The notes under the pieces were generated by a model, which was not told the DNA's origin, did not search any database, and saw only the letters and a program-made list of their open reading frames with translations. This document shows positions 19,959 through 61,696 of a stretch of DNA of 64,000 nucleotides, one piece after another. Each line of letters opens with the position of its first letter. The first letter of the stretch is position 1. Origin of the DNA: Candidatus Eisenbacteria bacterium (GTDB lineage Bacteria > Orphanbacterota > Orphanbacteria > Orphanbacterales > Orphanbacteraceae); NCBI GenBank assembly GCA_016930695.1, contig JAFGGD010000013.1:1-64000 (forward strand), given 5' to 3'. Position numbers and translations under genes: made by a program.

Positions 19959-21315
19959 ATGTTATTCAACTCGTTCCATTTTTTAATCTTCTTTCCCGTG
20001 GTGGTAATGCTTTATTTCGCAATGCCTTCCCGGTTCCGTTAGTTTCTCCTTCTGGTCGCCAGCTACCATTATTATGCCTGCTGGAAGCTGGAATACCTTC
20101 TTCTGATCATTACGTCCACGCTGATCGACTATGTCGCCGGAATCCAGATCGGGAAGGCGGACACTCGGCAGCGAAAACGGCTCTTTCCCGTTCTCAGTCT
20201 CGTGATCAATCTGGGGCTCCTCTTCGCGTTCAAGTACTTCGGCTTCTTTGCGCGGTCCCTAAGCGAACTGCTCGGCTTGTTCGATGTCGCGTACACGCCG
20301 CCCATCCTCAAGGTATTGCTCCCGGTGGGGATCTCGTTCTATACGTTCCAGACCTTGAGTTACACCATCGATGTCTACCTGGGCAGGCGGCAGCCGGAGA
20401 GGCATTTGGGCATCTTCGCGGTTTACGTCTCCTTCTTCCCCCAGCTCGTCGCCGGACCGATCGAGCGATCGACCCGACTTTTGCCCCGGTTTTTCGAGGA
20501 GAAAGGGTGGGATTGGGATCGGGTTCAATCCGGATTGCGCCTACAACGGCGCGGCGCTCTTCCTCGCCACCTTCTTTTTCGCATTCCAGGTTTACTGTGA
20601 TTTCTCCGGTTATTCGGATATCGCGATCGGCGCCGCCCGGGTGATGGGATATGAACTCACCATCAACTTCCGCCAGCCCTTCTTCGCCCGCTCCATCCGT
20701 GAGTTGTGGGAGCGCCGGCACGTGACCCTCACGACGTGGTTCCGCGATTACATCTACATCCCCATGGGGGGGAGCCGTGTACGGACCTTTTTTCAATACC
20801 GTAATCTTTTCGTGACTTTTCTGATCAGCGGGCTCTGGCACGGAGCGAACTGGACGTTCGTGGGATGGGGGGCGCTGAACGGCGTTTATCTCGTCATCGC
20901 GCGCCTGACGAGCAAGCCGCGCAGGCGGCTCATCGAGACCTTCCACCTCGATCGGGTGAATATCCTGCTGAACCCGCTCCGAACCGTTTATATCTTTATC
21001 CTCTTCCTGACCGGCCTGGTCTTCTTCCGGTCGCCGAGCGTGAGCGATGCGTTCCGGATTTTTCCGCGCATCGCGACCGATCTCTTTCGGATCCCCTCGC
21101 TCGGTTCCCTGCCGGCGCCTTACGACGTCACCCGGGATATGTACTTCCTTTTCGGGTTGATCGTTCTCTTGAATCTTTATGACTGGTACATCAACCGGGA
21201 GTGGACGTTTTTAGAAGGCCCGATCGCCAGGACTCTCGTGACGTCGTTTCAGTTCTGGGCGATCATGGTGTTCGGAGTGTTTCATAATCAAGAGTTCGTT
21301 TACTTCCAGTTTTAA
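19959..21315 (+). pseudogene. MBOAT O-acyltransferase (AlgI/DltB-like), disrupted
   Basis: Reading from ATG 19959 gives an AlgI-type N-terminus (LFNSFHFLIFFPVVVMLYF), but codon 28 is TAG at 20040-20042, where the family usually has a Trp-containing RxxW stretch. The same frame continues with good homology to about 20540 (GPIERSTRLLPRFF). Homology then jumps into another frame at AYNGAALFLATFFFAFQVYC, with roughly 30 family residues missing, so a deletion and frameshift are present. The C-terminal half is otherwise normal and retains the invariant His in SGLWHGANWTF. Base composition is visibly less GC-rich than the surroundings. TAG is an ordinary stop in neighbouring genes (15553, 17964), so read-through is unlikely. 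Assembly error is the main alternative. Confidence 0.8.
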
Positions 21316-21326
21316 CGAAGCGCGGA

Positions 21327-22344
21327 ATGAAAAAAAGAATCCTGTTCCTTCAGTTGGCGATCGTGATCCTGATGGGCGAGGCGTTTTTCCGCTTTGACGA
21401 AGCGACGCTTTTCTTTCAGGGCGCGCGGTTCGAGTTCCTCGAGAGCGAGCCGCGGGTGAGCGCCTTGCGGACGGATCTCGATGAAGGAACCTTCGATCCC
21501 GATTCGGCGGCGCTCCGCGTGATGATGGTGGGCGATTCGTTTCTTTTCGGGGGGAAGGCGAACGAGGACTATATCTTTTCGAACCAGCTGAGGGAAAAGC
21601 TCCGTGCGGAGAATTGCCGCGGAAAGGACGGCGTGTACGTTCTCGACCTCAGCAGTCCCGGCGCGAACACAGCAGTTAACTTCCGAAATTTCGAGAGTTA
21701 TGTGGAGCGTTTCCGGCCCCAGATCCTCCTGTGGGTGTACAGCCGAAACGATGTGTACGAGGGAGGGGAGGAGGATCCGGGAGGAGTCGGCGGCGGGCGG
21801 GAAAAGGTCCGGTCCGAGGACGGATCGCGCGCCGTGGATCGCCTGAACCGGATCGTGAAGGACACGCAGGGGTTTTTCTTCCGGCACCTGAAGACGATGC
21901 GCTGGGCTCTCAAAACGATCAACACCGAGCTGAAGCTTCGGGGTGTTCTCGTGCCGGGGACTCAGCACTACCACCTGATCAAACGCTCTCACGCGCCGGA
22001 CTTCGGTCCTTGGAAAGAGTCGCAGCGGCAGTTGGAGGCGATGGTCCGCAAGTGCGAGGAAGAGGGGATCTTCGTTCTGGTCTTCAATTCACCCTATCTT
22101 CTATATGTTGAAGAATTATGGCATCTACGACGAGCAGGACCGGGTGATCGCCGATTACTTTCATGGACTCGGAGTGAACTTCGTCAACGGCGTGGACTTT
22201 TTCCTCGATGATCGGGATGGAGAATACGCCATATCACGGTTCGACCTGCATCCCAACGAAGCGGCTCACACGAGAATCGCCGACGGGATTCATCGGTATC
22301 TTGTCGAAAACTACCCGCCGGAAAACGATGCCACCACGAAATAG
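21327..22344 (+). pseudogene. SGNH-hydrolase-like acyltransferase partner (AlgJ/AlgX type), frameshifted
   Basis: The first frame from ATG 21327 (to about 22100) encodes an N-terminal signal anchor and the block-I motif MMVGDSFLFGG, plus a middle typical of periplasmic SGNH partners of MBOAT proteins (WVYSRNDVYEG). Near 22100, after FNSPYLLY, homology moves by one base into the next frame, which runs to 22344 and holds the block-V motif FDLHPNEAAH with the catalytic Asp/His. Read as one gene of about 338 codons it is a complete SGNH protein apart from this single-base shift. The acyltransferase immediately upstream is also broken, so the whole polysaccharide O-acylation module looks inactive. 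Confidence 0.75.
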
Positions 22345-41538: not shown

Positions 41539-44500
41539 ATGAACGGTATGCGGCTGTCCCTCATCGCGATGGTCTGTTTCGCGGTGCTCGCCTTCGTCCC
41601 CCCCGCGGCGGCGGATTTCGTCGGTCTCGACGCGGACGGGGATCTGTCCTGTGATTCGACGGACATGCAGGTGATCCTGGAAGCCGGCGACATCGGAACC
41701 CTCCGAACGCTGGATTTGTATTTCGACGATGTTCCCGATCTCCAGTCCTGGGGATGCACCTTCTGCGTCAAGAACGGGGCGTTGGTGACCAATGAGTCCT
41801 TCGCATACTCCGTCCCGGCCGCCTGGGCGAGCGTGTCCATGAAGGACTCCGACGGCGATAACCTCACCATCTCGGAGTTCATCACAACGATGTATCCGGA
41901 TTACCGCTGCTACCTCGTCCAAGCCACGGACTGGACCGGCGCGTCGCCGATGTCCTTCCCGGCCAAAGTGGGCACCTTCTCTTATGAAGTGGCCGACGAG
42001 GGATGTCTCGGCTTCGTCATCGACGGCCCGACCTCCGGCTGGTTCAGCATGATCGTGGGCCAGGGCGATTTCGGCGATCCCGGCGAAGCCTGCGATACCG
42101 TCTCCTGTCCGAGCCAGGTGGAGCCGGTGGTGATCGGAACCGAGACGCCCGCCTGCCCGATTCCGGACGCGATGCTCTACGAGAACTACGACCTGGGGAT
42201 CCAGTTCACCGCCGCCGGCGGCGTTCCTCCCTACGGCTGGGACGTGGATGTCCTGCCGGCGGGCATGCGGATCGTCCCCGAGACCGGGGTCGTCGAGGGG
42301 ATGCCGACCGAGTTCGGCGGCTTCGCGTTCCAGGTCCGCGTGACCGACGACATCGGCCAGTTCGACGTGCGCCCCTGCTCGATCTACGTGGACAAGCCCA
42401 GGATCGACCAGACCACGCCTTCCTGCCCGGTTCCGGCCGCCACCTACGGCGTTTCCTACCCGGCGGGAACGGTCTTCCAGCTCGCCAACAGCCCGACCCA
42501 GAGCCTCTCCTGGACCGCCACCGGTCTTCCCCTCGGCATGGGGATCAACCTGACCACCGGCGAGTTGTTCGGCACGCCGACCGAGTGGGGTTGGGACATT
42601 CCCTTCACGGTCTTTTTGAACGGAATCGGTCCGACCAAGGTAGTCCTCGACCAGAGGGAGTGCAGCATCACCGCGCTGCCCATCGCGATCGACGACGCCG
42701 ATCCGGCCTGCCCGATTCCGAACGCGAACCAGGGGGTCGAATACGCGGCTCTCGTCCAGTTCCGGCCGGACGCGCCGGCGGGCTACAACAACGAGCACCG
42801 CTGGGATGTCTCCGGCCTGCCGAACGGCATGTCGATCGACGAGAAGACCGGTTCCATCAGCGGAACGCCCACCGAAGCGGGGGACTTCACCTTCACCGTC
42901 GCCCTCTTCGCGGATCCGTCCAACAAGGCGGTCGAAGATCCGATGGACACGCGGGAATGCTCCATCACGGTCGGCGAGGCGGCGAGCATTACCGTCGCTA
43001 CACTGCCGCCGGGCCAACTGTCCGCCGCCCCGGGAGCGGCCGCGACCCACTCCTTCGAGGTGGAGAACGTCGCCGGAACCCGGATCGAGCTCTCCGCGCA
43101 GGCGCGCTCCGAGAACGGCTGGGACGCGCTGGTCACCTCCTCGATGTTCTTCTCTCTCGCCCCGGGAGAGATCGAGACGGTCTACGTGGACCATGTCGTT
43201 CCCGCCGGCGCGGAATGCCCCGGCCAGAGCGATCCGGTGCCGGGCGACACGCTCTGGCTCGACGTTTTCGAGTCGCAAATCAGGCCGCAGGAACCGCTCG
43301 CCTCGGATTGGGCGTTCACCACCGCCGAGTTCTCCGCGGGGGTCGTGGTTTCGCCGCCCCAGTATCCCGCCGAGTGCGCCGATCCGGGGGATTCCATCTA
43401 CGTACAGATCGATGTGCATAACACCGGCGCCTGCCCGGAGTGGTTCGACATCGATCTGACCTTCGACAAGCCCGGTTGGTCGGCGGAGGTCGCCATTCTC
43501 ACTCCTCCGATCTGGCTCTCCGCCGGAGCCCTCGGGAGCGTGCCCGTCTGGGTGCACGTGCCGGAGGACGCGGAATGCGGCGAGCAGGTGACCATGCAGT
43601 TCAAAGCCACGGGGACGGTCTTCGGCGCCGCCGATTCCACGGAGACCGACCACTGCGCCAACAACATCTATGAAGTGAGCATCCGCGACATCTCCGGGTT
43701 GGGCGGCGAACCGGGCGATTCGGTGACCTACTGTTTCGAGGTGAAGAACGAGGGGAACTGCGACGTCATCGCCTATCCGGAGGCTTTTTCCGGCTGGCCG
43801 GTGAACTTCAACTCGGCCGAGCGCCTCATCCCGGTGGATCAGTCGGACACGATCTGCGTCCGCCATCTGATCCCGGCGGGGACCGCCGTCGGCGCGATGA
43901 TGAACCTCACCTTCATCGTCTCACCGGGCTTGATTCCCGAGAAGGATCGCGAAGCCGTCTTCCGGCCCGACACGCTCGTCGTGACCACAACCGCCCTCGA
44001 GGGCTGCGACGCGGGCGTGGAGATCACCCCTCCGGCAGGCGGCTCCTCCCATTTTCCGAATGAGTTGTTCCAGATCGCATTCAACGTTTCCAACACGGGC
44101 GGCGATCCGGACCGTTACCTCCTCTACGCGGATTGCCCGCAGGGGTGGATGGTGGATACCGAGGAGGACACCACGCCGGTGATCGATCCGGGTAACGACT
44201 ACGACGCCGTGGTGAACGTGCAGGTGCCGTCCAACGCGCTCTGCACCGACCAGGGTTGGGTCCGCCTCTACGCGCTCTCCCTCTGCGACCCGCAGACCAT
44301 GGATATCGACTCCGCCGCCTACGGCGTCATGCCTGTCGTCAATTACGAAGTGGTCGGTTACCCCGAGGATTCCACCGGCGTGCCCGGACAGAGGATGGAG
44401 TACTTCTTCCGGATCACCAACAACGGGAACTGCGCCTTCCCGACGGGGCTCATGCTCCTCAGCACGCCGGCTTGGGAGATCGACCACGGCGGCATGGACG

Positions 44501-45342
44501 AATTCGAACTCGGGCCGGGCGAATTCAGCGACTTTCATCTCGGCGTGCGGATTCCCGACGACGCCGTGCAGGGGGACGAGCACAAGTTCCTTCTCTGCGC
44601 CGACGCGGCCATCAACAAGGACAGGCAGGGAGGGGCGTGCGACTCCATCATCACCCGCGTGCTGAGCGGCTGCGAGCACGTGCAGCCGATCCTCTCCCTC
44701 GGCGACTATCGAACGGTGAATTACACCGGACCGGGAGGACTCTGGACGGTGCAGGTGCAGCTCCGGAACAACGGTCCCGGCGAGGCGCGGAACATCTCCA
44801 TGGAGATGCACGAGAACCTCAGCTGGCTTCTGATCCCGGACGCGGTCGCTTCCTACGGGAACCTGCCGCAGGGGTCGGCGAGCTACGGCGACGGGGACGG
44901 GGAAACCTTCACCTTCGATCTCTCCGGCTATCCGGGGGGGAGCTTCAACGTTTGGTTCGACGTCTCCTACGAGGACGCCTGCGGCGCGCCGCCCACCTAC
45001 CAGGTGCGGCTCGACCCGACCTTCCTCGACCCGGAGGCGTCCGCCGGCGCGCTTCCCTCGCCGACCGCCTATGTGCTGCACGGCAATATGCCGAACCCGT
45101 TCAACCCGTCGACGACCATCGGATTCGAGCTGCCGGTGGCGTCGCGCGCGGAGCTGACGATCTACAACACCGCCGGGCAGAAGGTGAAACGGATCTGGAG
45201 CGGCGATCTCCCCTCCGGCGTCCACACTTTCCAGTGGACCGGCGAGGATGATCGCGGAAACCCCGTTCCCTCGGGCACTTACTTCTACAGCCTGAAGAGC
45301 GGCGATTTCCGGGCCACCAAAAGAATGGTGCTCGTCCGATAG
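41539..45342 (+). CDS. Large secreted multi-Ig protein with FlgD-type C-terminal sorting domain
   Basis: The 1267-residue protein starts at ATG 41539 after CAGGAGG. After the signal peptide, about 170 residues of Cys-containing beta structure are followed by three putative-Ig (He_PIG) repeats each introduced by CP[IV]P: near residues 212, 297 and 391, with PTEFGGFAFQVRVTDD-type endings. From about 490 to 1150 come several NEW3/CARDB-like domains (CFEVKNEGNCDVIAYPE, FFRITNNGNCAF) with regularly placed cysteines, suggesting disulfides. The C-terminus carries NMPNPFNPSTTIGFELPV and GTYFYSLKSGDFRATKRMVL, the FlgD-like Ig tail seen on secreted proteins of FCB relatives. A surface adhesin or scaffold is likely; no catalytic motif was seen. 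Confidence 0.8.
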   Translation: MNGMRLSLIAMVCFAVLAFVPPAAADFVGLDADGDLSCDSTDMQVILEAGDIGTLRTLDLYFDDVPDLQSWGCTFCVKNGALVTNESFAYSVPAAWASVSMKDSDGDNLTISEFITTMYPDYRCYLVQATDWTGASPMSFPAKVGTFSYEVADEGCLGFVIDGPTSGWFSMIVGQGDFGDPGEACDTVSCPSQVEPVVIGTETPACPIPDAMLYENYDLGIQFTAAGGVPPYGWDVDVLPAGMRIVPETGVVEGMPTEFGGFAFQVRVTDDIGQFDVRPCSIYVDKPRIDQTTPSCPVPAATYGVSYPAGTVFQLANSPTQSLSWTATGLPLGMGINLTTGELFGTPTEWGWDIPFTVFLNGIGPTKVVLDQRECSITALPIAIDDADPACPIPNANQGVEYAALVQFRPDAPAGYNNEHRWDVSGLPNGMSIDEKTGSISGTPTEAGDFTFTVALFADPSNKAVEDPMDTRECSITVGEAASITVATLPPGQLSAAPGAAATHSFEVENVAGTRIELSAQARSENGWDALVTSSMFFSLAPGEIETVYVDHVVPAGAECPGQSDPVPGDTLWLDVFESQIRPQEPLASDWAFTTAEFSAGVVVSPPQYPAECADPGDSIYVQIDVHNTGACPEWFDIDLTFDKPGWSAEVAILTPPIWLSAGALGSVPVWVHVPEDAECGEQVTMQFKATGTVFGAADSTETDHCANNIYEVSIRDISGLGGEPGDSVTYCFEVKNEGNCDVIAYPEAFSGWPVNFNSAERLIPVDQSDTICVRHLIPAGTAVGAMMNLTFIVSPGLIPEKDREAVFRPDTLVVTTTALEGCDAGVEITPPAGGSSHFPNELFQIAFNVSNTGGDPDRYLLYADCPQGWMVDTEEDTTPVIDPGNDYDAVVNVQVPSNALCTDQGWVRLYALSLCDPQTMDIDSAAYGVMPVVNYEVVGYPEDSTGVPGQRMEYFFRITNNGNCAFPTGLMLLSTPAWEIDHGGMDEFELGPGEFSDFHLGVRIPDDAVQGDEHKFLLCADAAINKDRQGGACDSIITRVLSGCEHVQPILSLGDYRTVNYTGPGGLWTVQVQLRNNGPGEARNISMEMHENLSWLLIPDAVASYGNLPQGSASYGDGDGETFTFDLSGYPGGSFNVWFDVSYEDACGAPPTYQVRLDPTFLDPEASAGALPSPTAYVLHGNMPNPFNPSTTIGFELPVASRAELTIYNTAGQKVKRIWSGDLPSGVHTFQWTGEDDRGNPVPSGTYFYSLKSGDFRATKRMVLVR

Positions 45343-45694: not shown

Positions 45695-47893
45695 ATGATC
45701 GGACGCCGTTTGCTGCTCGCCGTCCTCGCGGGGACGGCACTTCTAGCGCCCCCGTCCGCACGGGGCGGGTACGAACGGTGGACCGTGGAGGATGGTCCCT
45801 TCGGGGGTCGTGTCGAGGCGCTTCTCGCGACGGACGCGGGCGTTCTCCTGGCGGGAACCGAGGAGGGGGGCGTCTTTCGCTCCTTCCGGAACGGCGCCGG
45901 ATGGTCGGCGGGGAACGACGGCCTCTTCTTCACCGACGTGCTCTCTCTTGTAGCGAGCCCCACCGCGCCGGAGAGCCTCTTCGCCGGCACCAGCGGAGGC
46001 GGCGTCTACCGGAGCTCCAACGGGGGGAGGAGCTGGTTCCCGGTGGTGAACGGCTTGGGAGGCATGACGGTTCGGGATCTGCGTTTCCGCGCGGACCGGG
46101 ACCGGCTTCTCGCGGCGACCACGAGCGGGATCTACCGCACCGACGACCGGGGAGCGGCCTGGCATCTCTCCGGCACGGGTCTCACGGAATCCTCGATCCA
46201 CGCCCTCGCGTCCGCCCCTTCCGCCGACTCCGTCTGGTACGCCGGCACCGGAGGCGGCGTCTTCCGCTCCGCCGACGGCGGTTCCACCTGGACCGCCCGC
46301 TCCTCGGGACTCGACTACGCGATCGTCTCCGCTCTGGCGGTGCACCCCGGCGACCCGGAACGCGTCTGGGCCGCCACCCAAGGCGGCGGCGTCTACAAGA
46401 CCATAAACGGCGGCCTCGCCTGGAGCCCCGCCCGAGTCGGGATGGGGGAGGTCTATGCCGAGGCGCTCGCCATCGATCCGGACGGGCCGGACACCCTTTG
46501 GGCGGCGACCCGGGCGGGACTCTTCGAGACCTTCGACGGCGGCGGTCTCTGGACCGTCCGGAACGCCGGGCTTCCGGACACGGTGACCCAGGAAGTACTC
46601 CTCGCGGGAGACACCCTCTTCGTCGGCATGTACCACGGCGGCGTCGCCGCCTCCGCCGATCCCGCATCGGGATGGACCGCGCGGAACGAGGGGCTCGCCA
46701 ATCGCTTTGTCCATGAAGTGACTCTCTCCCCCCACGACGGCGGCGTTCTTTGGCTCGCTTCGTACGGGGGGCTTTTCACGAGCGCCGATACCGGTTGGAC
46801 CTGGACCGCCGCCGGCCCCGGCGTCGATGCGCGGGATCTCATGAGCGTGGCGGTGAGCCCCGACGACGGCGAAGACCTCCTTGCCGGCGCCTTTTACGGC
46901 GGGATCTGGCGGAGCGAAGACGGCGGCGCCTCCTGGACCGCTTCCTCCGCGGGCATCGGATCGATGGCGACGGTCACGTCGATCCTCTACCGCCCGGGCG
47001 ACGGGACGACCGCGCTCGCGGGTACCTACGGCGGTCCCTGGCGGAGCGCCGACGGCGGCCTCTCCTGGACGCTCTCCGACTCCGGGATCGGTTCCCGGAA
47101 CGTCTGGGGGATGGCGACGTCGGCCGCCGCGCCGGATCTCGTCTACGCCGGCACCTACGGCGACGGCCTCTTCCGGAGCCGCGACTTCGGCTCCACCTGG
47201 ACGGGTGTTTCCTCGATGAGCGATAACTATGTACGAGCCGTGGCGGTCGATCCCTCCGACACGTCCGTCGTCTACGCCGGCGGCTACTACAACGGCGGCG
47301 TCTACAAGAGCGTGAACGGCGGCGCCTCCTGGACGCGGAAGAACACCGGGCTTACCGACCGCAACGTCTGGTGCATCGCCGTCGATCCCTTCGATTCGAG
47401 CCATCTCGCCGCCGCCACCGGGAGCGGCGTCTTCGAGTCGTGGGACGGCGCGGACAACTGGGAACTCTTGGACGACGGGCCGGCGCCGCGGGATACGCAC
47501 TGGGTCCTCTTCGCGGGCGGGCGCCTCGTCGCCGGCGTGTCCGGCGGTTCCGCCCCCTGGTTCGAACACGCGGAGATCGGCGTCGCCGCCGGCGGACCGC
47601 CGCCGCCTTCCTCGGCTCGTCTCGCGGCGGTTCCCAATCCCTTCAACCCCAAAACGTCTCTTCGACTCGTCTCCGCGCCCGCCGGCCGGTGGGACCTTCG
47701 CGTCTACGACCTGCGGGGCCGGCTCGTCCGCGTCCTCGGCGCCCCGTCCCTCCCGAGCGGAGGGGAGGGGATCATCGCCGACTGGGACGGCGCCGACGGG
47801 GACGGCCGTCCGCTCCCCTCGGGCGTCTACTTCGGCGTCGCCCGCCATTCATCCGGAGCCCGCGCCTCCGCCCGTCTCGTTCTCGTCCGCTAG
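45695..47893 (+). CDS. Secreted Asp-box (BNR/sortilin-like) beta-propeller with FlgD-type C-terminus
   Basis: The 732-residue protein has a signal peptide (LLLAVLAGTALLAPPSARGG) and about twelve Asp-box units of roughly 50 residues, each with the pattern [FYW][RK]S.[DN]GG..W, for example YRSSNGGRSW, FRSADGGSTW, WRSEDGGASW and YKSVNGGASW. This folds as one or two beta-propellers, as in Vps10/sortilin and YCF48 relatives. No sialidase catalytic residues were noticed. The last 90 residues begin AAVPNPFNPKTSLRLVS and end SGVYFGVARH, the FlgD-like tail. Likely exported and surface-located, with a binding rather than enzymatic role. Preceded by an independent promoter. Confidence 0.85.
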   Translation: MIGRRLLLAVLAGTALLAPPSARGGYERWTVEDGPFGGRVEALLATDAGVLLAGTEEGGVFRSFRNGAGWSAGNDGLFFTDVLSLVASPTAPESLFAGTSGGGVYRSSNGGRSWFPVVNGLGGMTVRDLRFRADRDRLLAATTSGIYRTDDRGAAWHLSGTGLTESSIHALASAPSADSVWYAGTGGGVFRSADGGSTWTARSSGLDYAIVSALAVHPGDPERVWAATQGGGVYKTINGGLAWSPARVGMGEVYAEALAIDPDGPDTLWAATRAGLFETFDGGGLWTVRNAGLPDTVTQEVLLAGDTLFVGMYHGGVAASADPASGWTARNEGLANRFVHEVTLSPHDGGVLWLASYGGLFTSADTGWTWTAAGPGVDARDLMSVAVSPDDGEDLLAGAFYGGIWRSEDGGASWTASSAGIGSMATVTSILYRPGDGTTALAGTYGGPWRSADGGLSWTLSDSGIGSRNVWGMATSAAAPDLVYAGTYGDGLFRSRDFGSTWTGVSSMSDNYVRAVAVDPSDTSVVYAGGYYNGGVYKSVNGGASWTRKNTGLTDRNVWCIAVDPFDSSHLAAATGSGVFESWDGADNWELLDDGPAPRDTHWVLFAGGRLVAGVSGGSAPWFEHAEIGVAAGGPPPPSSARLAAVPNPFNPKTSLRLVSAPAGRWDLRVYDLRGRLVRVLGAPSLPSGGEGIIADWDGADGDGRPLPSGVYFGVARHSSGARASARLVLVR

Positions 47894-54626: not shown

Positions 54627-55190
54627 TTGAGTTGGAGAAAGACGGGCATAAAGAGCTTGGGTCTCGCGTTGCCGCTCATCCTTCTGTCCGCCCTGGTTTG
54701 GGCGGCCGACGAGTCGGACACGGGAAACAGCATCGTGGGAGGTACGATACCCGAATTGTGCCAGATCGGAATCTCCGGAGACGTCTCCGGATTGTTGACC
54801 CTTACCCAGGACGGCACCGGAGAAACGGCATACGACGCGGGATACGTCGAGTCCGCCGCGGACGCGGTGACGGTTCGAGTGGACGCGAATAAACAGTGGA
54901 AACTGAGCGTTCATTACACCGGCGGTGGCTGGAGCTGTCCCGGTTCCTATGATAAGGACGAAGCGGATCTGGACCTGCGGATCACGAACACGCCGACCGG
55001 CACGATCCAGAACGGCGCCGATTCCTATTTCAGTCCCACGTCGAGCGCCACGGAGATCCTGAGCCACACCGTGGGCGTGCAGGACAACGACGTGGAGGTG
55101 CAGGTTCGGGTCGACCTGGATTGGACCGCCGATATTCCCGGCGCGTACAGCATCACGACCGTGTACACCATGGAGACGACCACGGGTTAA
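54627..55190 (+). CDS. Secreted pilin-like beta-sandwich subunit 1
   Basis: TTG 54627 follows AAGGAGA by about 7 bases and gives 187 residues. The signal peptide is LGLALPLILLSALVWA. Mature features are LTLTQDGTGETAYDAG, ADAVTVRVDANKQWKLSVHY, WSCPGSYDKDEADL and ITNTPTGTIQNGA, ending with VRVDLDWTADIPGAYSITTV. The last segment is the shared C-terminal LDW..PG.Y signature. It is 60-70% alike by eye to the product at 55543-56133. A terminator follows at 55282, so this gene may be expressed apart from, and more strongly than, the rest. Likely a surface fibre or coat subunit; spore-coat-U or archaic-pilin relatives are the nearest idea, not a firm match. Confidence 0.65.
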   Translation: MSWRKTGIKSLGLALPLILLSALVWAADESDTGNSIVGGTIPELCQIGISGDVSGLLTLTQDGTGETAYDAGYVESAADAVTVRVDANKQWKLSVHYTGGGWSCPGSYDKDEADLDLRITNTPTGTIQNGADSYFSPTSSATEILSHTVGVQDNDVEVQVRVDLDWTADIPGAYSITTVYTMETTTG

Positions 55191-55281
55191 ATATTCTCCC
55201 GTCGCTCCGGCGCCGGCCCCTTTCGGCGATGACGCGGAGTGACCGTGAGAGCGGCGCGGCGACTCCACCGCGACGGAAATA

Positions 55282-55334
55282 AGGCGGGCGGGCCGGTGAT
55301 CGGTTCGTCCGCCTCCTCATTTTCTTTTTTTTCC
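55282..55334 (+). terminator. Terminator between the two subunit paralogues
   Basis: A 14-bp stem (55282-55295 with 55301-55314, three G-T pairs) is followed by CCTCATTTTCTTTTTTTT. It should end or attenuate transcription after the first subunit gene. Confidence 0.75.
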
Positions 55335-55542
55335 GATGCCCGTTCCCGTTCGATCGTCCCGAGTCTTAACCTACATAATTGCAATGAGATGGTGTCGCTC
55401 GTCGCCGCCGCCCCCCCCCGCGTTCCCCGTTCCCCGGAGGTCCGTTTTCGAGAGGAACGTCTTTTTTTTAAAGATTTGTTCAGAAATCCCGAAAAACGGA
55501 TGGAAAGGGTCTCGTGGCTCGGAAAAGGAGCGGACCGGAACG

Positions 55543-56133
55543 ATGTGGCGATCTGCGAAACAGGTCGGTCCAGGGCAGGGACCGCTGGGCGGCCCGCGTT
55601 GCCTGCCCTATTTGCTGCTCGCCGCCGCGTTCGCCGCGGGCGCGCTCAGCGCGCGAGGCGAGGAGACGCAGGCGTCGATCGGAAGGATGCTTGTTCCCAT
55701 GCTCAGCCAGCTCACGCTGATGGGGGACATGTCCGACCTTCTCACTCTGACCGCCGACGGCGTCGGCGAAAGCGCGTACGACGCCGGGCAGGTCGAATCG
55801 GCGGCGGATGCCACGGTGCTCACCATCAACGCCAACGCGCCTTGGGATCTCTCGGTGAAGCTCGCCGGTGACTGGACCTGCCCCGGCGCCTACGACAAGG
55901 ACGAGGACGATCTCGCCATACGCATCACGAACACACCGACCGGAACGATCCAGAACGGCGCCGGATCCTACATCGACTTGGACGGCTCAGACACGCAGAT
56001 CCTGAGCCACACGGAAGGCGTGGCGGATAACGCGGTGCACGTGCAGACCCGCGTGCTGTTGGACTGGGCCGGGGACATCCCCGGCACGTACGGAATCACG
56101 ATCACCTATACCCTGGTCGCCCACGTCGAGTGA
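55543..56133 (+). CDS. Secreted pilin-like beta-sandwich subunit 2
   Basis: ATG 55543 follows AAGGAG (about 11 bases). The 196-residue product has a signal peptide (LPYLLLAAAFAAGALSARGE) and the same blocks as subunit 1: LTLTADGVGESAYDAG, INANAPWDLSVKL, WTCPGAYDKDEDDL, ITNTPTGTIQNGAG and VLLDWAGDIPGTYGITITYT. One conserved cysteine (in WTCPG) is shared by both. The 208-base gap upstream contains no confident promoter. It is followed by the chaperone gene 53 bases later. Function as a structural subunit is inferred from tandem paralogy, secretion and neighbours. Confidence 0.65.
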   Translation: MWRSAKQVGPGQGPLGGPRCLPYLLLAAAFAAGALSARGEETQASIGRMLVPMLSQLTLMGDMSDLLTLTADGVGESAYDAGQVESAADATVLTINANAPWDLSVKLAGDWTCPGAYDKDEDDLAIRITNTPTGTIQNGAGSYIDLDGSDTQILSHTEGVADNAVHVQTRVLLDWAGDIPGTYGITITYTLVAHVE

Positions 56134-56186
56134 CCGGAAAGAGCGGGGCGGCGCGCGGCCGGCCCGCGGGACGGGAGAACGAAACG

Positions 56187-57752
56187 ATGACGCGTCGATG
56201 CCTCTCCTACGGGGTCCTCCCGGCGCTTCTGTTCGCGGCGCACCTGATCGCGGTGCCCGACGCGCGGGCGTCCTTCGTGGTGTCGCCGATGGAACTGCAC
56301 CTCCGGGCCGGTCCCGGCGGGCGCGCCGAGGAGCCCATCACGATCAAGAATACCGGTACCCGGCCCCTTTCGGTCCGTCTCTATCCGGGCGACAGCCGCT
56401 TCGGATTGGACGGCCGGGAGGAGAATCTCCCCGTCGGATCGCTGGCGCGGAGCTGTGCCGACTGGCTCACCGTGGACGGACGCGTCATCGATCTGGAGCC
56501 GGGCGAGGTGAGGCAGATCCCGATCCTGCTCGAGGCACCGTCGCCGGCGGTGGGAAGTTATTGGACCAAAGTCTATCTCGAAGAGGTGAGCGCCCCCGAA
56601 CCGTCGGTCGTGAAGGAAGGGGAGCGGACCTACCGGGTTTTCATCAAGCAACGGGTCGGCGTTCGGATTTTTGAGGACGTGGAAGGGACGCTCCGGCCCG
56701 CCGCCCGGGTGACCCATGTCGGCGTGGAGGCGCCGGAGATCCGCGAGGCCGCGGTGACGCCGGAAACCGTTTCTCCGAAAGACGCGGCGCCGGGCTCTTG
56801 GCGCGCCCAGCTCCTCGCCACCCGGGACGCCGGCAAGGCGCGGGGGTTGGCCGAGTCGCTCGCGGGGAGATTCGACGGCCCGGTTCACGTGGTGTTCGAT
56901 GATCCCTTCTATAAGGTGCAGGTCGGCGAGGAACGGACGCGGGAGGAGGCGGAGGTCCTGACCTCCCGGCTCGCCTCCACCGGTTTCGGTTCGAGCTGGA
57001 TCGTCCGCGCGTCCGTCGCTTCGCCGGCGGGCGCGAAGGCCGAGAGTCGCGCCGACGCCCCGGCGCCCGCCGCGCGGACCGAGACGGTCGACGGGTTCCG
57101 CGTGCAGCTCCTCGCCTCCGCCGACGAGAAAAAGGCGCGCGCCCTGGCGGAGCGAGCGGAAGCGGTTCTGGAGACCGCGGCGTACGTGGAACGGAGCGGC
57201 GCCCTCTTCAAGACGAGGGTGGGGAACTGCGAGGAGAAGGAGGACGCCCTCCGTCTCGTGGAGCGGGCGAAGCGATCCGGTTTCGGCGGGGCTTGGTTGG
57301 TGCGCGCGGAGGTGACGCGGGAGGCGCCCCTTCTCGCCTCGGTTCCCGAAACGGGGATTCTACCGCCGACGGCGGAGGAGCCCGCGGCGTCCGCCTCACT
57401 CGACCACGGGAGAAACGCCGCGCCGTGGACCCCGGTGGTTACGGTTCGCGTCGAGAACACGGGCAACAGCATTCTCCGTTGCACCGGCCGCGCCGAGATC
57501 CGCGACGGCGGCGGGGCGGCGTTGGACACCCTCGCCCTCGGTGTGGAGGGTCGGTTCACCCTTTTCCCCGGTGGGACGCGGGAACTGCGCGTCTCCGGGG
57601 ATCGGGACCTCGCGCCGGGAACCTATACCGCGCTGGCGATCGTGGATTTCGGCGGTGATTATCTTGTGGCGGGGGACGCGGTTTTCGAGGTCCCGGACCG
57701 GCGCGTGCTCGCCCGTTCCGGACCCGGAGCGATCCAGGGAGATGGTGAATAA
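56187..57752 (+). CDS. PapD-like periplasmic chaperone carrying two SPOR domains
   Basis: The 521-residue protein has a signal peptide and then an N-terminal Ig-fold typical of fimbrial chaperones (SFVVSPMELHLRAGPGG, EEPITIKNTGTRPLSVRLYP, LEPGEVRQIPILLEAP, about 30-160). Two SPOR domains follow, near 204-278 (WRAQLLATRDAGKARGLAES...SSWIVRAS) and 302-377 (FRVQLLASADEKKARALAER...GAWLVRAE), and then a second Ig-like domain (VVTVRVENTGNSILRCTGRA...LAPGTYTALAIVDFGG, about 414-505). SPOR domains bind septal peptidoglycan; inside a chaperone this would localise subunit handling to a cell site. ATG 56187 follows GGGAGA. The downstream gene overlaps by 11 bases. Confidence 0.7.
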   Translation: MTRRCLSYGVLPALLFAAHLIAVPDARASFVVSPMELHLRAGPGGRAEEPITIKNTGTRPLSVRLYPGDSRFGLDGREENLPVGSLARSCADWLTVDGRVIDLEPGEVRQIPILLEAPSPAVGSYWTKVYLEEVSAPEPSVVKEGERTYRVFIKQRVGVRIFEDVEGTLRPAARVTHVGVEAPEIREAAVTPETVSPKDAAPGSWRAQLLATRDAGKARGLAESLAGRFDGPVHVVFDDPFYKVQVGEERTREEAEVLTSRLASTGFGSSWIVRASVASPAGAKAESRADAPAPAARTETVDGFRVQLLASADEKKARALAERAEAVLETAAYVERSGALFKTRVGNCEEKEDALRLVERAKRSGFGGAWLVRAEVTREAPLLASVPETGILPPTAEEPAASASLDHGRNAAPWTPVVTVRVENTGNSILRCTGRAEIRDGGGAALDTLALGVEGRFTLFPGGTRELRVSGDRDLAPGTYTALAIVDFGGDYLVAGDAVFEVPDRRVLARSGPGAIQGDGE

Positions 57753-58260
57753 CCGAAACCATATACGGATAAACGGCCTCGGGTTCCTCGGATTTTTCTT
57801 CGTCGCTTCCGTCATCTTCACGGCTCCCGAACCGGTCCGTGCGCAAACCGCCGGGCAGGCGCTCGTCGAGATCGATCTCGCCGTTCCGGCCCTGCAGCGT
57901 TTGGACGTGAATCCCGGTCTTCTCGGCATTCCGTCCCCCGCCTCCGGCGATTTCGCGCGGGGCTGTCTCGATCTCTCCGACCCGATCGAGGTGGAGATCT
58001 CGAGTAACATCCCCTGGATCCTTTCGCTTCGCGCGGCGGAGGAGGAAGAGAAGGCTCCTCTCTTTTTTCGCGTCGAAGGTTCCCGCTATCTCCCCCTGGA
58101 TACGGAGTGGCGCGTCGTGGCGCGCGGGGACGGTGCCGCCAATCGGGAACGCATCCGTATCGATCTCCGGATCCTACTCTCTTGGACCGGCGTAGTGCCC
58201 GGCCTCTACGAGCCGAGAATCGAGTACCGTCTCGCGCCGTCGGGGGAGGAGAAGCCGTGA
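57742..58260 (+). CDS. Secreted pilin-like subunit 3
   Basis: ATG 57742 lies within the end of the chaperone gene and gives 172 residues. A signal anchor (GLGFLGFFFVASVIFTAPEP) is followed by a short beta-sandwich. Its central VEISSNIPWILSLRA matches the NAPWDLSV block of the other subunits, a single cysteine sits in RGCLDLSDP, and the end LLSWTGVVPGLYEPRIEY is the LDW..PG.Y signature with L.W. It ends overlapping the next gene (GTGA). A minor or tip subunit is plausible, since it is less like the first two than they are to each other. Confidence 0.6.
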   Translation: MVNNRNHIRINGLGFLGFFFVASVIFTAPEPVRAQTAGQALVEIDLAVPALQRLDVNPGLLGIPSPASGDFARGCLDLSDPIEVEISSNIPWILSLRAAEEEEKAPLFFRVEGSRYLPLDTEWRVVARGDGAANRERIRIDLRILLSWTGVVPGLYEPRIEYRLAPSGEEKP

Positions 58261-58739
58261 GGATGGGCGTGGTCGGACGTTCGGTGGTGTTCGCCGCGGC
58301 GGCGCTTCTCGCGATCGGTCCGGCGGCGGCGGCGGACTTCGCCTCGGTCCGAGTGAGCGCCGGAAAGGTGCTCTTCCCCCTCGTCACCAAGGGCGCTCTG
58401 GCGGCGGGACGGGCGGAGGTCGGCGCGGCGCGCGGGATCTGCGCCCTCTCTGTCGAAGTGGAGCCCGTCGACGATCGCGGATGGAGCCTCTATGTCGTGA
58501 CGGATAGTCCCGCATTCGATCCGGTGGACGTGGGGAAACCCTGCGGCGATCTCTATTGGAAGAAGGATGAAGACGGGCCAGGCGCCTATCGCCCCTTGGA
58601 CGAGGGGGAGTGGCTCGTTTTCGACAATCCCGAGGGGGGACGGGCGGTCGTTCCGCTGGACGTCGCCGTCGCCCTCGATTGGAACACGCCGCCCGGCCGC
58701 TACAGTCTGGGCGTGCGTTTTCTGGTGAAACCGCGATGA
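58257..58739 (+). CDS. Secreted pilin-like subunit 4
   Basis: Start GTG 58257 overlaps the previous stop and has GGGGAGGAG about 6 bases upstream; ATG 58263 is an alternative. The 160-residue product has a signal peptide (VVFAAAALLAIGPAAAA) and a beta-rich body with SVEVEPVDDRGWSLYVVT and KPCGDLYWKKDEDGPGAY, whose YWKKDEDGPG echoes the DKDE block of subunits 1 and 2. It ends VAVALDWNTPPGRYSLGVRF, the shared C-terminal strand. The stop overlaps the ATG of the large barrel protein (ATGA), so chaperone, subunits 3 and 4 and barrel are translated as one coupled set. Confidence 0.6.
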   Translation: MRMGVVGRSVVFAAAALLAIGPAAAADFASVRVSAGKVLFPLVTKGALAAGRAEVGAARGICALSVEVEPVDDRGWSLYVVTDSPAFDPVDVGKPCGDLYWKKDEDGPGAYRPLDEGEWLVFDNPEGGRAVVPLDVAVALDWNTPPGRYSLGVRFLVKPR

Positions 58740-61696
58740 GCCCGCTTCGCCTCCCCCTCCGGTTCGTCCCGCTTCCGTTACTCGCGGCGGCGGTCTTTAC
58801 GTTTTTCGCCTGGGCGCCGCGGGGCGCCGCCGACGCCGGTCGGGCTTCTTCTTCCGTGACCGTTTCTTCTTGGATCTCCGACCGGGCGACGCCGGGGGGC
58901 TTCGCGACCTGGTCCTTCCTGATCGAGAACCGGTCCCCCTCGGCCGAGGATGTGACCGTCGAATTGGAGCTGCCCGAGACTTGGAGCGCGGTGACGCCTC
59001 GGCGCGTCCTCTCCCTCGGTCCGGGAGAATCGGCGGGCGTTCCTTTCACCGTGTGGGTTCCCGCTCGGGCGTCGGCGGATTCTCTCTACGAAGTGAACGC
59101 CGTGGTCCTCTCCGCGGACGGCGTCGGCAAGGTGACCGCGACCAAGACGATCCGGGTGGAGGAGGTGCGCGAGGTGGGTCTCACGCCGGCGGCGCCGCTC
59201 GTCGGCGGGTCGCCGGGGGAGTGGGTCATTCATACGTTTACGATCGAGAACGCGGGGAACGTGACCTCCCGTGTCGCCCTTTCCTTCGAGTCGACCCCGG
59301 ACTGGCGGATCGATCCTCCGGACTCGCCCGTCGAACTCCTTCCCGGCGAGAGGCGGGACCTGCATGTCGGATTGGAGGTGCCCCGCGAGGCGGCGGAGGG
59401 GACCATTCACATCCTGACCATGATCGCCGATCCGGCGGAGTACGACGCCGCGGGCGGAGGCGTCTTCTCGGTGCGCCGCCGGGTGAGTACTCTCGTCGAG
59501 GGCGGGCCGTCCGGAGGGACCTACCGCCGCCTTCCGGTGCGTTCCACTTTCTCCGTCCTGCAGAGTGAAGGGGAGGACCCCGCCTTCGGTTTCCGCGGCG
59601 TCGTAGCCGGCGCCCTCTCGGACGATTCCCGGATCGAAATGGATCTCGATCTCGTCAGCGGGGACCGCGGTTCCGGGGCGCGGGACTGGAGGAGTCAGTA
59701 TCTGCGCGTCGGCTACCTGCGGGATCGATGGGAATTGGTCGCCGGGGACGTGAACGCACCCTTCCCGAACGTGGCTTACCGGGTCCTCTCCGGACGGGGG
59801 ATTCGTTTTCGTTCCGACGGGGACCGGTGGACTTCACGGGCGCTCCTTTCCCGGGACCGCGCGGCGGGCGCACACTCCGCCTGGGCGGCCGGCGTCGGCC
59901 GTCGGGTCGGACGGTCCTGGTGGGTCGGCGCCGACTGGATTCATCGCGATCTTCTCTTCGCGCCGGACGACGAGATCCGCCCGCGCCGGATGGGCGTGCT
60001 CTCCGCCGTCTACGAGCCGCACCCCGGTTTTTCATTGAGGGCGGAAGGGGCGTTGGGCCGAGCCCCGGTCGAGGGAGGGGGTTCGGAAAGCGGGCGTGCG
60101 GCGCTTCTGGAGATCGAAAGGCAAGGAGAGCGTTGGACCGCCGACACGCGCCTCTACGCCGGCACCTCCGGGAATCCGGGTTGGACCCGCGACCGGGACG
60201 GGGCGGTTCTTTACCTGCGCTATCGGCCGGTCGCGTCCCTCGCTCTCTGGACGAGCGCGGACGGATCTCGTGGGCGCTCGGGCGACAACGCCGACTCGGA
60301 CGACCGGGTGACGGCGCGCTATCGCATGGGCGCGCGGCTCACCCCGCGGTCCGGTCCCCGCCTCGAACTCTCCGCGGGGGGGAGGAGGGACAGGGAGGGG
60401 GAAGAGGGGAGCGTGCGCGACGCGGAGCGACGCGACCTGAGCGGCGGAATCTGGTGGCCCCTCGGCCGCCTTCTCTTCGGGCTTTCCGGGAAGAGGGGGG
60501 ACGCCTTCGACCTTCGGAGCGGCCAAAGCGGGGAGTTGTCCGAATACGGCGCCACTTTGGGGGGTTCGATCCGGAGTCTCCGCGCCGCGTTCCGTTGGAA
60601 CCGGGGGCGGGAATGGGTGCCCGAGTCCGCTTCGGAAACGCGGAGCGTGACCTGGGTGACCGATCTCGGGTGGAACACCACCGGGGGAAGGGCGGCGGTC
60701 GGGCTGGCGGCGATGGGGGAGAGTTTCGAGCAGTCCCTCTCCGGCACGGAGCCCTGGACGCGCCACACCTTCCGTCCCCGCGTCGACCTGCGCCTTTTCG
60801 CCGGCCTCCACCTGCGCACCGAATCCAGCATCGTCGGCGGAATGGACGATTGGACCGTGGAACGTTGGCAGGTAAACCTTACCTGGAGCGAGGCGAACGG
60901 GCTTCCGGTGCTCTGGTCGCCGGAACGGGGCGGGCTTCGGGCGCTGGTTTTCCTGGACGCCGACGGCGACGGCCGGCGCGACCCGGGGGAGGAGGCGCTC
61001 GCGGGCGTGGTGCTCGCCGTCGACGGAGAGCAGGCGATCACCGGATCGGACGGCGCCGCTTCCTGGTCCTCCCTCGAAGCGGGTGAGCACGACGTGGACC
61101 TGAACGACGCCACTCTGCCGTCGGGCACGGTGGCGCTCGCCGACTTCCCCTCTCTCGTCTGGATCGAGGCGGGGCGCCGGACCGACCTGGCCGTCCCCGT
61201 CCGCCGGGCGGCCCGCGTTTCCGGGCGCCTCTTCGTCGACGCGAACGGGGACGGCGTCTGGGACCCGGGCGAGGAATCCTTCCGGGATATCCGGATCGAG
61301 CTGTGCGCGGGGGAGACACGGAGGGCGAGCGGATTGACCGGCGCCGGAGGCGCGTACGGTTTTCAGGCCGTATCGCCCGGTCTCTACACGATCCGCGTGG
61401 CCGAGGGGTGGCTTCCGGAGGGCTGGCGTCTCACCGGTTTCCCGCCGGACGCGTTCGCCGTCGGAGCCGGCGAGGATGTGGAACTACCCCCTTTGGGCGC
61501 CGCCCCTCGGCGGCGGCCGATCGTGATGACCTACGGCGGAGGCGCATGCGATGGAGAGACCGCCGCGTCGCCCGCTCTCCGGGAGATCGCGCCCGTGGGA
61601 ATGGACACCGATGCGCCGGACGACCGGCCGATCCTCAAGACCTACGACGGAGCGAGCGGCCGCGCGCTGGAACGGGGCGTGCCCTTGAATCGCTGA
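58736..61696 (+). CDS. Usher-like outer-membrane barrel with NEW3-like and SdrB-like domains
   Basis: ATG 58736 overlaps the previous stop; 986 residues. After the signal peptide (to about 33) come two NEW3-like Ig domains (SFLIENRSPSAEDVTVELEL and TFTIENAGNVTSRVALSF, about 40-250). Residues 265-735 are amphipathic beta strands (DLDLVSGDRGS, SQYLRVGYLRDRWELVAGDV, VLSGRGIRF) consistent with a large barrel. Two SdrB/CnaB-like domains follow near 735-800 and 825-905 (VFLDADGDGRRDPGEE; LFVDANGDGVWDPGEE), then a Pro-rich end. Classic ushers also combine barrel and Ig-like domains, but no clear usher plug or family signature was recognised. As last gene of the coupled set it is the best candidate for the assembly platform. 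Confidence 0.65.
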   Translation: MSPLRLPLRFVPLPLLAAAVFTFFAWAPRGAADAGRASSSVTVSSWISDRATPGGFATWSFLIENRSPSAEDVTVELELPETWSAVTPRRVLSLGPGESAGVPFTVWVPARASADSLYEVNAVVLSADGVGKVTATKTIRVEEVREVGLTPAAPLVGGSPGEWVIHTFTIENAGNVTSRVALSFESTPDWRIDPPDSPVELLPGERRDLHVGLEVPREAAEGTIHILTMIADPAEYDAAGGGVFSVRRRVSTLVEGGPSGGTYRRLPVRSTFSVLQSEGEDPAFGFRGVVAGALSDDSRIEMDLDLVSGDRGSGARDWRSQYLRVGYLRDRWELVAGDVNAPFPNVAYRVLSGRGIRFRSDGDRWTSRALLSRDRAAGAHSAWAAGVGRRVGRSWWVGADWIHRDLLFAPDDEIRPRRMGVLSAVYEPHPGFSLRAEGALGRAPVEGGGSESGRAALLEIERQGERWTADTRLYAGTSGNPGWTRDRDGAVLYLRYRPVASLALWTSADGSRGRSGDNADSDDRVTARYRMGARLTPRSGPRLELSAGGRRDREGEEGSVRDAERRDLSGGIWWPLGRLLFGLSGKRGDAFDLRSGQSGELSEYGATLGGSIRSLRAAFRWNRGREWVPESASETRSVTWVTDLGWNTTGGRAAVGLAAMGESFEQSLSGTEPWTRHTFRPRVDLRLFAGLHLRTESSIVGGMDDWTVERWQVNLTWSEANGLPVLWSPERGGLRALVFLDADGDGRRDPGEEALAGVVLAVDGEQAITGSDGAASWSSLEAGEHDVDLNDATLPSGTVALADFPSLVWIEAGRRTDLAVPVRRAARVSGRLFVDANGDGVWDPGEESFRDIRIELCAGETRRASGLTGAGGAYGFQAVSPGLYTIRVAEGWLPEGWRLTGFPPDAFAVGAGEDVELPPLGAAPRRRPIVMTYGGGACDGETAASPALREIAPVGMDTDAPDDRPILKTYDGASGRALERGVPLNR

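Follow-up and report, generated by a model that had tools for sequence, protein, structure and literature searches.

A probable donor-strand assembly system of the chaperone-usher kind in Candidatus Eisenbacteria, with counterparts in distant genomes

Six consecutive genes of Candidatus Eisenbacteria, lying in a 64,000-nucleotide window (the whole stretch of DNA analysed), probably encode a divergent donor-strand system of the chaperone-usher type, one whose usher-like pore would lack a plug. The comparisons presented here support family membership, fold, a donor-strand motif, a conserved gene set and the pairing of chaperone with subunits. No account of such a system was found in open-access papers, a search that left out most subscription papers and preprints.

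Organization of the locus

The six-gene set occupies positions 54627-61696, and all six products are secreted (Table 1). Genes B to F are closely spaced or overlapping, the overlaps amounting to 11 bases at C/D and 4 bases at both D/E and E/F, and an alternative GTG start for C is possible at position 56130. Since a strong terminator-like hairpin divides A from B-F, A may form a separate transcript, and it is inferred to be, probably, the major subunit, with a putative terminator of its own. The genome also encodes Omp85 proteins, and therefore an outer membrane should exist. The first-pass annotation had described six secreted or outer-membrane proteins in this order, with the same overlaps from chaperone to barrel, and the open reading frame calls agree. 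Its view of A and B as paralogous subunits is borne out by their 55% identity, and Pfam concurs with its description of a chaperone with internal SPOR domains and a 986-residue barrel with NEW3/SdrB-like domains. Elsewhere in the window, positions 20001-22000 have a G+C content of 0.57, against about 0.67 for the window, with two genes (20371-22211) of different composition.

Table 1. Genes and features of the locus, in window coordinates
Feature	Position (strand)	Size or residues	Description
A	54627..55190 (+)	187 aa	Secreted subunit; start TTG, AAAGGAG upstream
Hairpin	55282..55314 (+)	15 pairs	Terminator-like, between A and B-F; consensus match only
B	55543..56133 (+)	196 aa	Secreted subunit, paralogue of A
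C	56187..57752 (+)	521 aa	WxLIP/EcpB-like chaperone, two Ig domains with two SPOR domains between them
C, Ig domain 1	56274..56729 (+)	30-181	AlphaFold, mostly pLDDT >90; low-confidence loop at ~131-150
C, predicted donor strand	56631..56657 (+)	149-157	YRVFIKQRV, conserved Arg156
C, SPOR domain 1	56793..57017 (+)		Pfam and AlphaFold model
C, SPOR domain 2	57093..57317 (+)		Pfam and AlphaFold model
C, Ig domain 2	57432..57695 (+)	416-503	pLDDT 87-98
D	57742..58260 (+)	172 aa	Subunit-like protein
E	58257..58739 (+)	160 aa	Subunit-like protein, shortest segment ahead of first strand
F	58736..61696 (+)	986 aa	Usher-like outer-membrane barrel
F, two NEW3-like Ig domains	58856..59437 (+)		N-terminal part, inferred to be periplasmic
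F, beta-barrel region	59471..60910 (+)		~23 modelled strands and a poorly modelled stretch
F, two SdrB/CarboxypepD_reg-like domains	60926..61507 (+)		C-terminal

Chaperone, subunits and barrel

A Pfam scan of C returned SPOR only, in two copies (PF05036, 4.7e-20), with no match to PapD_N or PapD_C. Members of the chaperone family match WxLIP_PGBD (PF06030) weakly, under the cut-off in diderm members and above it only in locus L069. When compared with the PDB, a 23-member chaperone profile reached the WxLIP of E. faecium at 2.9e-12, and a 21-member profile, which leaves out actinobacterial and similar members, reached it (9i1y, 9i25) at 3.9e-8 over both Ig domains; by these profile matches, the chaperone family is homologous to Gram-positive WxLIP over both Ig domains. 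The family is also remotely related to EcpB, a chaperone of the alternative chaperone-usher class, as hhalign gave 95% for the chaperone profile against EcpB and 84% with a reduced set, compared with 0.2% for a reversed control. For FimC-type chaperones the value was at most 28%, and no sequence relationship to C was detectable by hhalign. In a Foldseek search with the model of C, the bacterial matches were led by WxLIP, followed by CsuC, CfaA, FaeE and FimC, and many ciliary ASH/PapD-like domains were returned too, as expected for such a fold.

A donor-strand motif of alternating hydrophobic residues is present in the G1 strand of the chaperone family, in register with the donor residues of EcpB. 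Around Arg156, positions -7, -5, -3, -1 and +1 are hydrophobic in 75, 95, 60, 70 and 100% of members, respectively, and the positions between them are mostly polar. The Arg156 column itself is Arg in 19 of 21 members, and the adjoining +1 residue is hydrophobic in every one. The subunit-binding donor residues of EcpB, Ala111, Ala113, Ala115 and Ile117, have been examined by mutagenesis (PMC4654587). WxLIP is predicted to place a hairpin strand into the gap of the WxL sandwich, with a loop that is poorly ordered ahead of insertion (PMC10599100), and the model of C likewise has a loop of this kind before its donor strand. Arg89 of EcpB and CsuC, a hallmark of archaic and alternative chaperones that anchors the subunit C-terminus, has no counterpart in the family; the aligned position, 127, is T, S, A, G or C in 21 of 21 members, a reading that rests on a remote alignment to EcpB. 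It may be inferred that Arg156 acts in place of the absent Arg89. In the same sort of remote alignment, the column of the superfamily-invariant proline (EcpB Pro60) holds Pro in about half of the 21 members and Gly in C.

Subunits A, B, D and E are left unnamed by Pfam and NCBIfam scans, in which neither they nor their relatives match a known pilin or WxL (PF13731) profile, and a PDB search with subunit profiles gave no match. Alignment across phyla and loci groups the subunits into one domain family, with a W-x-L motif in mid-protein and a last strand of the form PG.Y...[IV].YTL. All four window proteins end in L(D/S)W...PG.Y (LDWTADIPGAY, LDWAGDIPGTY, LSWTGVVPGLY and LDWNTPPGRY), and the shared strand pointed out in the first-pass annotation is therefore real; it is also enriched near chaperone genes, since its strict form occurs in 20 of 81 chaperone-adjacent genes (22 loci) as opposed to 2 of 214 other genes (Fisher p 1.3e-10). 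One of these two is an orphan paralogue of A, 73% identical and encoded in the same genome (G000:C8:67695-68219; L018:7675-8223), which has no chaperone or barrel nearby and adjoins HD-domain, response-regulator and histidine-kinase genes.

Counted back from the C-terminus, the Gly of this last strand falls at a distance of 14 to 19 residues, and 7 of the 15 sequences displayed have it at -14; by comparison, a Gly stands at -14 in 8 of 8 classical-type subunits of E. coli and at -13 in EcpA. Ahead of the first strand, A, B and D have in common an extra segment, [TLA][IV]P.L..[IL].[ILV], which E lacks. By analogy with pili, this segment could be a donated N-terminal strand and E an end subunit, although this is a guess. 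Homology between the subunits and WxL is not claimed, as hhalign gave 1% with one alignment and 47% with another.

For barrel F, Pfam recognized two SdrD_B domains and NEW3-like/FixG_C domains. No usher family, including PF00577, was matched by F or its relatives in Pfam and NCBIfam scans, and F matches neither the TcfC plug (PF16967) nor CooC_C (PF15976), the latter being absent from matches in its own genome as well. CooC_C was in any case rejected as a marker of alpha ushers, being unspecific, with weak matches in 78 of 290 genomes. The model of F, in which residues 246-725 form about 23 long strands, has low confidence (pLDDT 64, pTM 0.38). Its best nine PDB matches are all FimD, with TM-scores of only ~0.2; PapC is also listed, and FimD ranks above TonB receptors such as BtuB. 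Sequence homology to ushers is not claimed, since hhalign remained below 9% for E. coli FimD-class ushers and EcpC, and “usher-like” is thus meant as a statement about modelled fold and layout, with descent not proven.

No plug family match and no plug-sized insert were recognized in F, where residues 309-376 are poorly modelled. A relative of the barrel (L065:8487-11489) carries, around residues 300-380, an insert similar to the FimD plug and the strand after it, but its pairwise hhalign comparison with FimD has an E of 0.013 and a probability of only 3%. Across loci, the large proteins have a barrel and then two SdrB-like domains in common, and their N-terminal part varies by lineage, comprising a NEW3 pair, a secretin-type/T2SS-T3SS_pil_N domain or a Cu-amine-oxidase N domain. 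Two further large secreted proteins of the window (41539-45342 and 45695-47893) have similar ...R.VLVR tails, and the first has a NEW3-like stretch in common with F (38% over residues 158-252).

Recurrence in other genomes and relation to known systems

A search with C found one close counterpart in the same taxonomic family (genome G002), where two small secreted proteins lie together with a chaperone whose single SPOR domain is C-terminal and a barrel of 1193 aa that has SdrB-like domains at its end. More broadly, when 290 diverse genomes were searched with a two-sequence profile of the chaperone Ig domains, 37 had matches. The classical usher, PF00577, occurs in five of the same 290 and in none of the 37, making the chaperone family about seven times commoner in this sample.

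The full set, consisting of subunit-like genes, a chaperone and a barrel of ~760-1200 aa, was present in 17 of 21 neighbourhoods read. As to the rest, the contig ends just past the chaperone in L059 and L064, secretin-like genes replace the barrel in L066, and L069 is actinobacterial-looking and would therefore have no outer membrane. An 816-aa gene near the L059 chaperone was not counted as a barrel, as it looks like a glycosidase. Almost all of the diderm loci fetched have the barrel, which either follows the chaperone immediately or stands one or two genes from it; L068 has its large gene upstream, not downstream. In L066 (5494-11333), two chaperone-family genes stand beside the secretin-like genes, and the product of one, of 543 aa, looks like two chaperone units. 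In three other loci (L053:9673-13204, L054:7330-10845 and L082:8831-12323), the same TPR-type tail ends both chaperone and barrel, an indication that these proteins act jointly.

A scan of named genomes found the system in Ca. Eisenbacteria, Thiothrix, another Thiotrichaceae and UBP2, with partial loci in Omnitrophota and Cloacimonadota. Deinococcus deserti (DEIDE_RS15110-15120) and Deinococcus sp. NW-56 (C3K08_RS15405-RS18840) carry it too, with products annotated as hypothetical, “FimB/Mfa2 family fimbrial subunit” or “carboxypeptidase regulatory-like”. The second of these names is given to the chaperone on plasmid 2 of D. deserti (L110:5953-6723), probably a misannotation. Although the chaperone family outnumbers classical ushers in the sample, in cultured Deinococcus it is annotated as hypothetical or misnamed.

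Several known systems invite comparison. The alternative (alpha) pathway, EcpB/EcpC/EcpA, has a two-Ig chaperone remotely homologous over both domains, with the same donor-strand register, and its EcpC, a barrel of usher type that carries a CarboxypepD_reg-like domain at its C-terminus, is similar to F in modelled layout. The window system, however, has no TcfC plug, EcpB_C or MatB match and no Arg89 counterpart, and it has two domains C-terminal to the barrel, N-terminal NEW3 Ig domains and SPOR in the chaperone. The WxL/WxLIP cluster of Firmicutes (DUF916-DUF3324 and WxL) is similar in chaperone homology over both domains, in W-x-L partner proteins and in its predicted strand insertion (PMC10599100), but the window system has a diderm host, an outer-membrane barrel, a C protein without a C-terminal transmembrane helix and subunits unmatched by PF13731. 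The classical FimC/FimD/FimA pathway offers a similar chaperone fold, the best fold match of F and a subunit Gly near -14, yet PapD_N, PapD_C and PF00577 matches are lacking and no plug is recognized. Finally, the archaic (sigma) Csu pathway supplies CsuC, one of the bacterial proteins that C matches best in fold, and differs in that the window system has no spore-coat-U-type subunit, PF00577 match or Arg89 counterpart.

Because the defining PF00577, Arg89 and TcfC/CooC_C features are lacking, the locus is regarded as a variant of the chaperone-usher kind and not as a member of a named class, which supports the first-pass annotation on this point. Its term “PapD-like” for C holds for the fold and fails for the PapD_N and PapD_C families, the sequence relatives being WxLIP and EcpB. 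Two findings that it had named as refuting were not encountered: the barrel does not match an unrelated porin or TonB family, and chaperone and subunits do co-occur, together with the barrel, in distant genomes. The checks that it proposed gave no usher, PapD or pilin match for any of the six proteins or their relatives by HMM, and the gene-order survey yielded the 17 loci as well as the named records. The system is wider in scope, and more clearly defined, than that annotation could have known.

Proposed mechanism and competing explanations

In the mechanism proposed, Sec would carry A, B, D and E into the periplasm. Chaperone C, putatively tied to peptidoglycan through its SPOR domains, would lend its G1 strand to each unstable beta-sandwich subunit by donor-strand complementation, and F would receive the chaperone-subunit complexes, the subunits then exchanging strands and passing to the surface to build a fibre or a layer there. 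In this scheme, the periplasmic topology, the exchange of strands, passage through F, polymerization and fibre formation are all inferred, there being no expression, fibre or interaction data.

The most serious competing explanation is a WxL/WxLIP cluster in diderm form, in which C holds WxL-like proteins to peptidoglycan, the barrel serves as a surface anchor of its own and no polymer is made. SPOR domains bind peptidoglycan, and their presence in C, the W-x-L motif of the subunits and a strongest chaperone homology to WxLIP would all suit this explanation, as would the actinobacterial-looking relative, which lacks a barrel, scores above the PF06030 cut-off and has a neighbour weakly matching WxL. 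It is nonetheless considered unlikely: the subunits match no WxL profile (1-47% by hhalign), a barrel whose fold match is an usher is nearly constant in diderm loci, and SPOR occurs in only three fetched loci, so that peptidoglycan binding is not general.

It is also conceivable, but improbable, that the barrel is some other secretion pore or an adhesin and that the chaperone merely escorts small proteins to the outer membrane for one-step display, without strand exchange. The missing plug, the low confidence of the barrel model and the lineage-dependent N-terminal domains leave room for such a pore, against which stand the FimD-like fold matches, the usher-like layout of a barrel and then two sandwiches, and the several related subunits per operon. 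That unrelated secreted proteins merely happen to be neighbours, a reading for which nothing speaks beyond the lack of Pfam names, is already refuted by the recurrence of the gene set across many phyla and by the motif enrichment.

If the donor-strand mechanism is true, a surface fibre built by strand exchange exists in many diderm phyla in which no pili are known, and the WxL/WxLIP and chaperone-usher systems, which have been studied apart, have a common chaperone ancestor. A bolder proposal, judged slightly less likely than not, is that the locus represents a major, phylum-spanning class of donor-strand assembly, undescribed because its barrel lost both recognizable sequence similarity to ushers and the plug, with a chaperone that unites WxL/WxLIP and the alternative pathway in one superfamily. 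Such a superfamily suggests that strand-donating chaperones are older than the split between envelope types or moved between them. Usher function without a plug and the origin of donor-strand assembly thereby become testable. Finally, the gene pair of the actinobacterial-looking locus (L069:7392-9857), a WxLIP-type protein and its neighbour, is a possible bridge between WxL/WxLIP and chaperone-usher-like systems.
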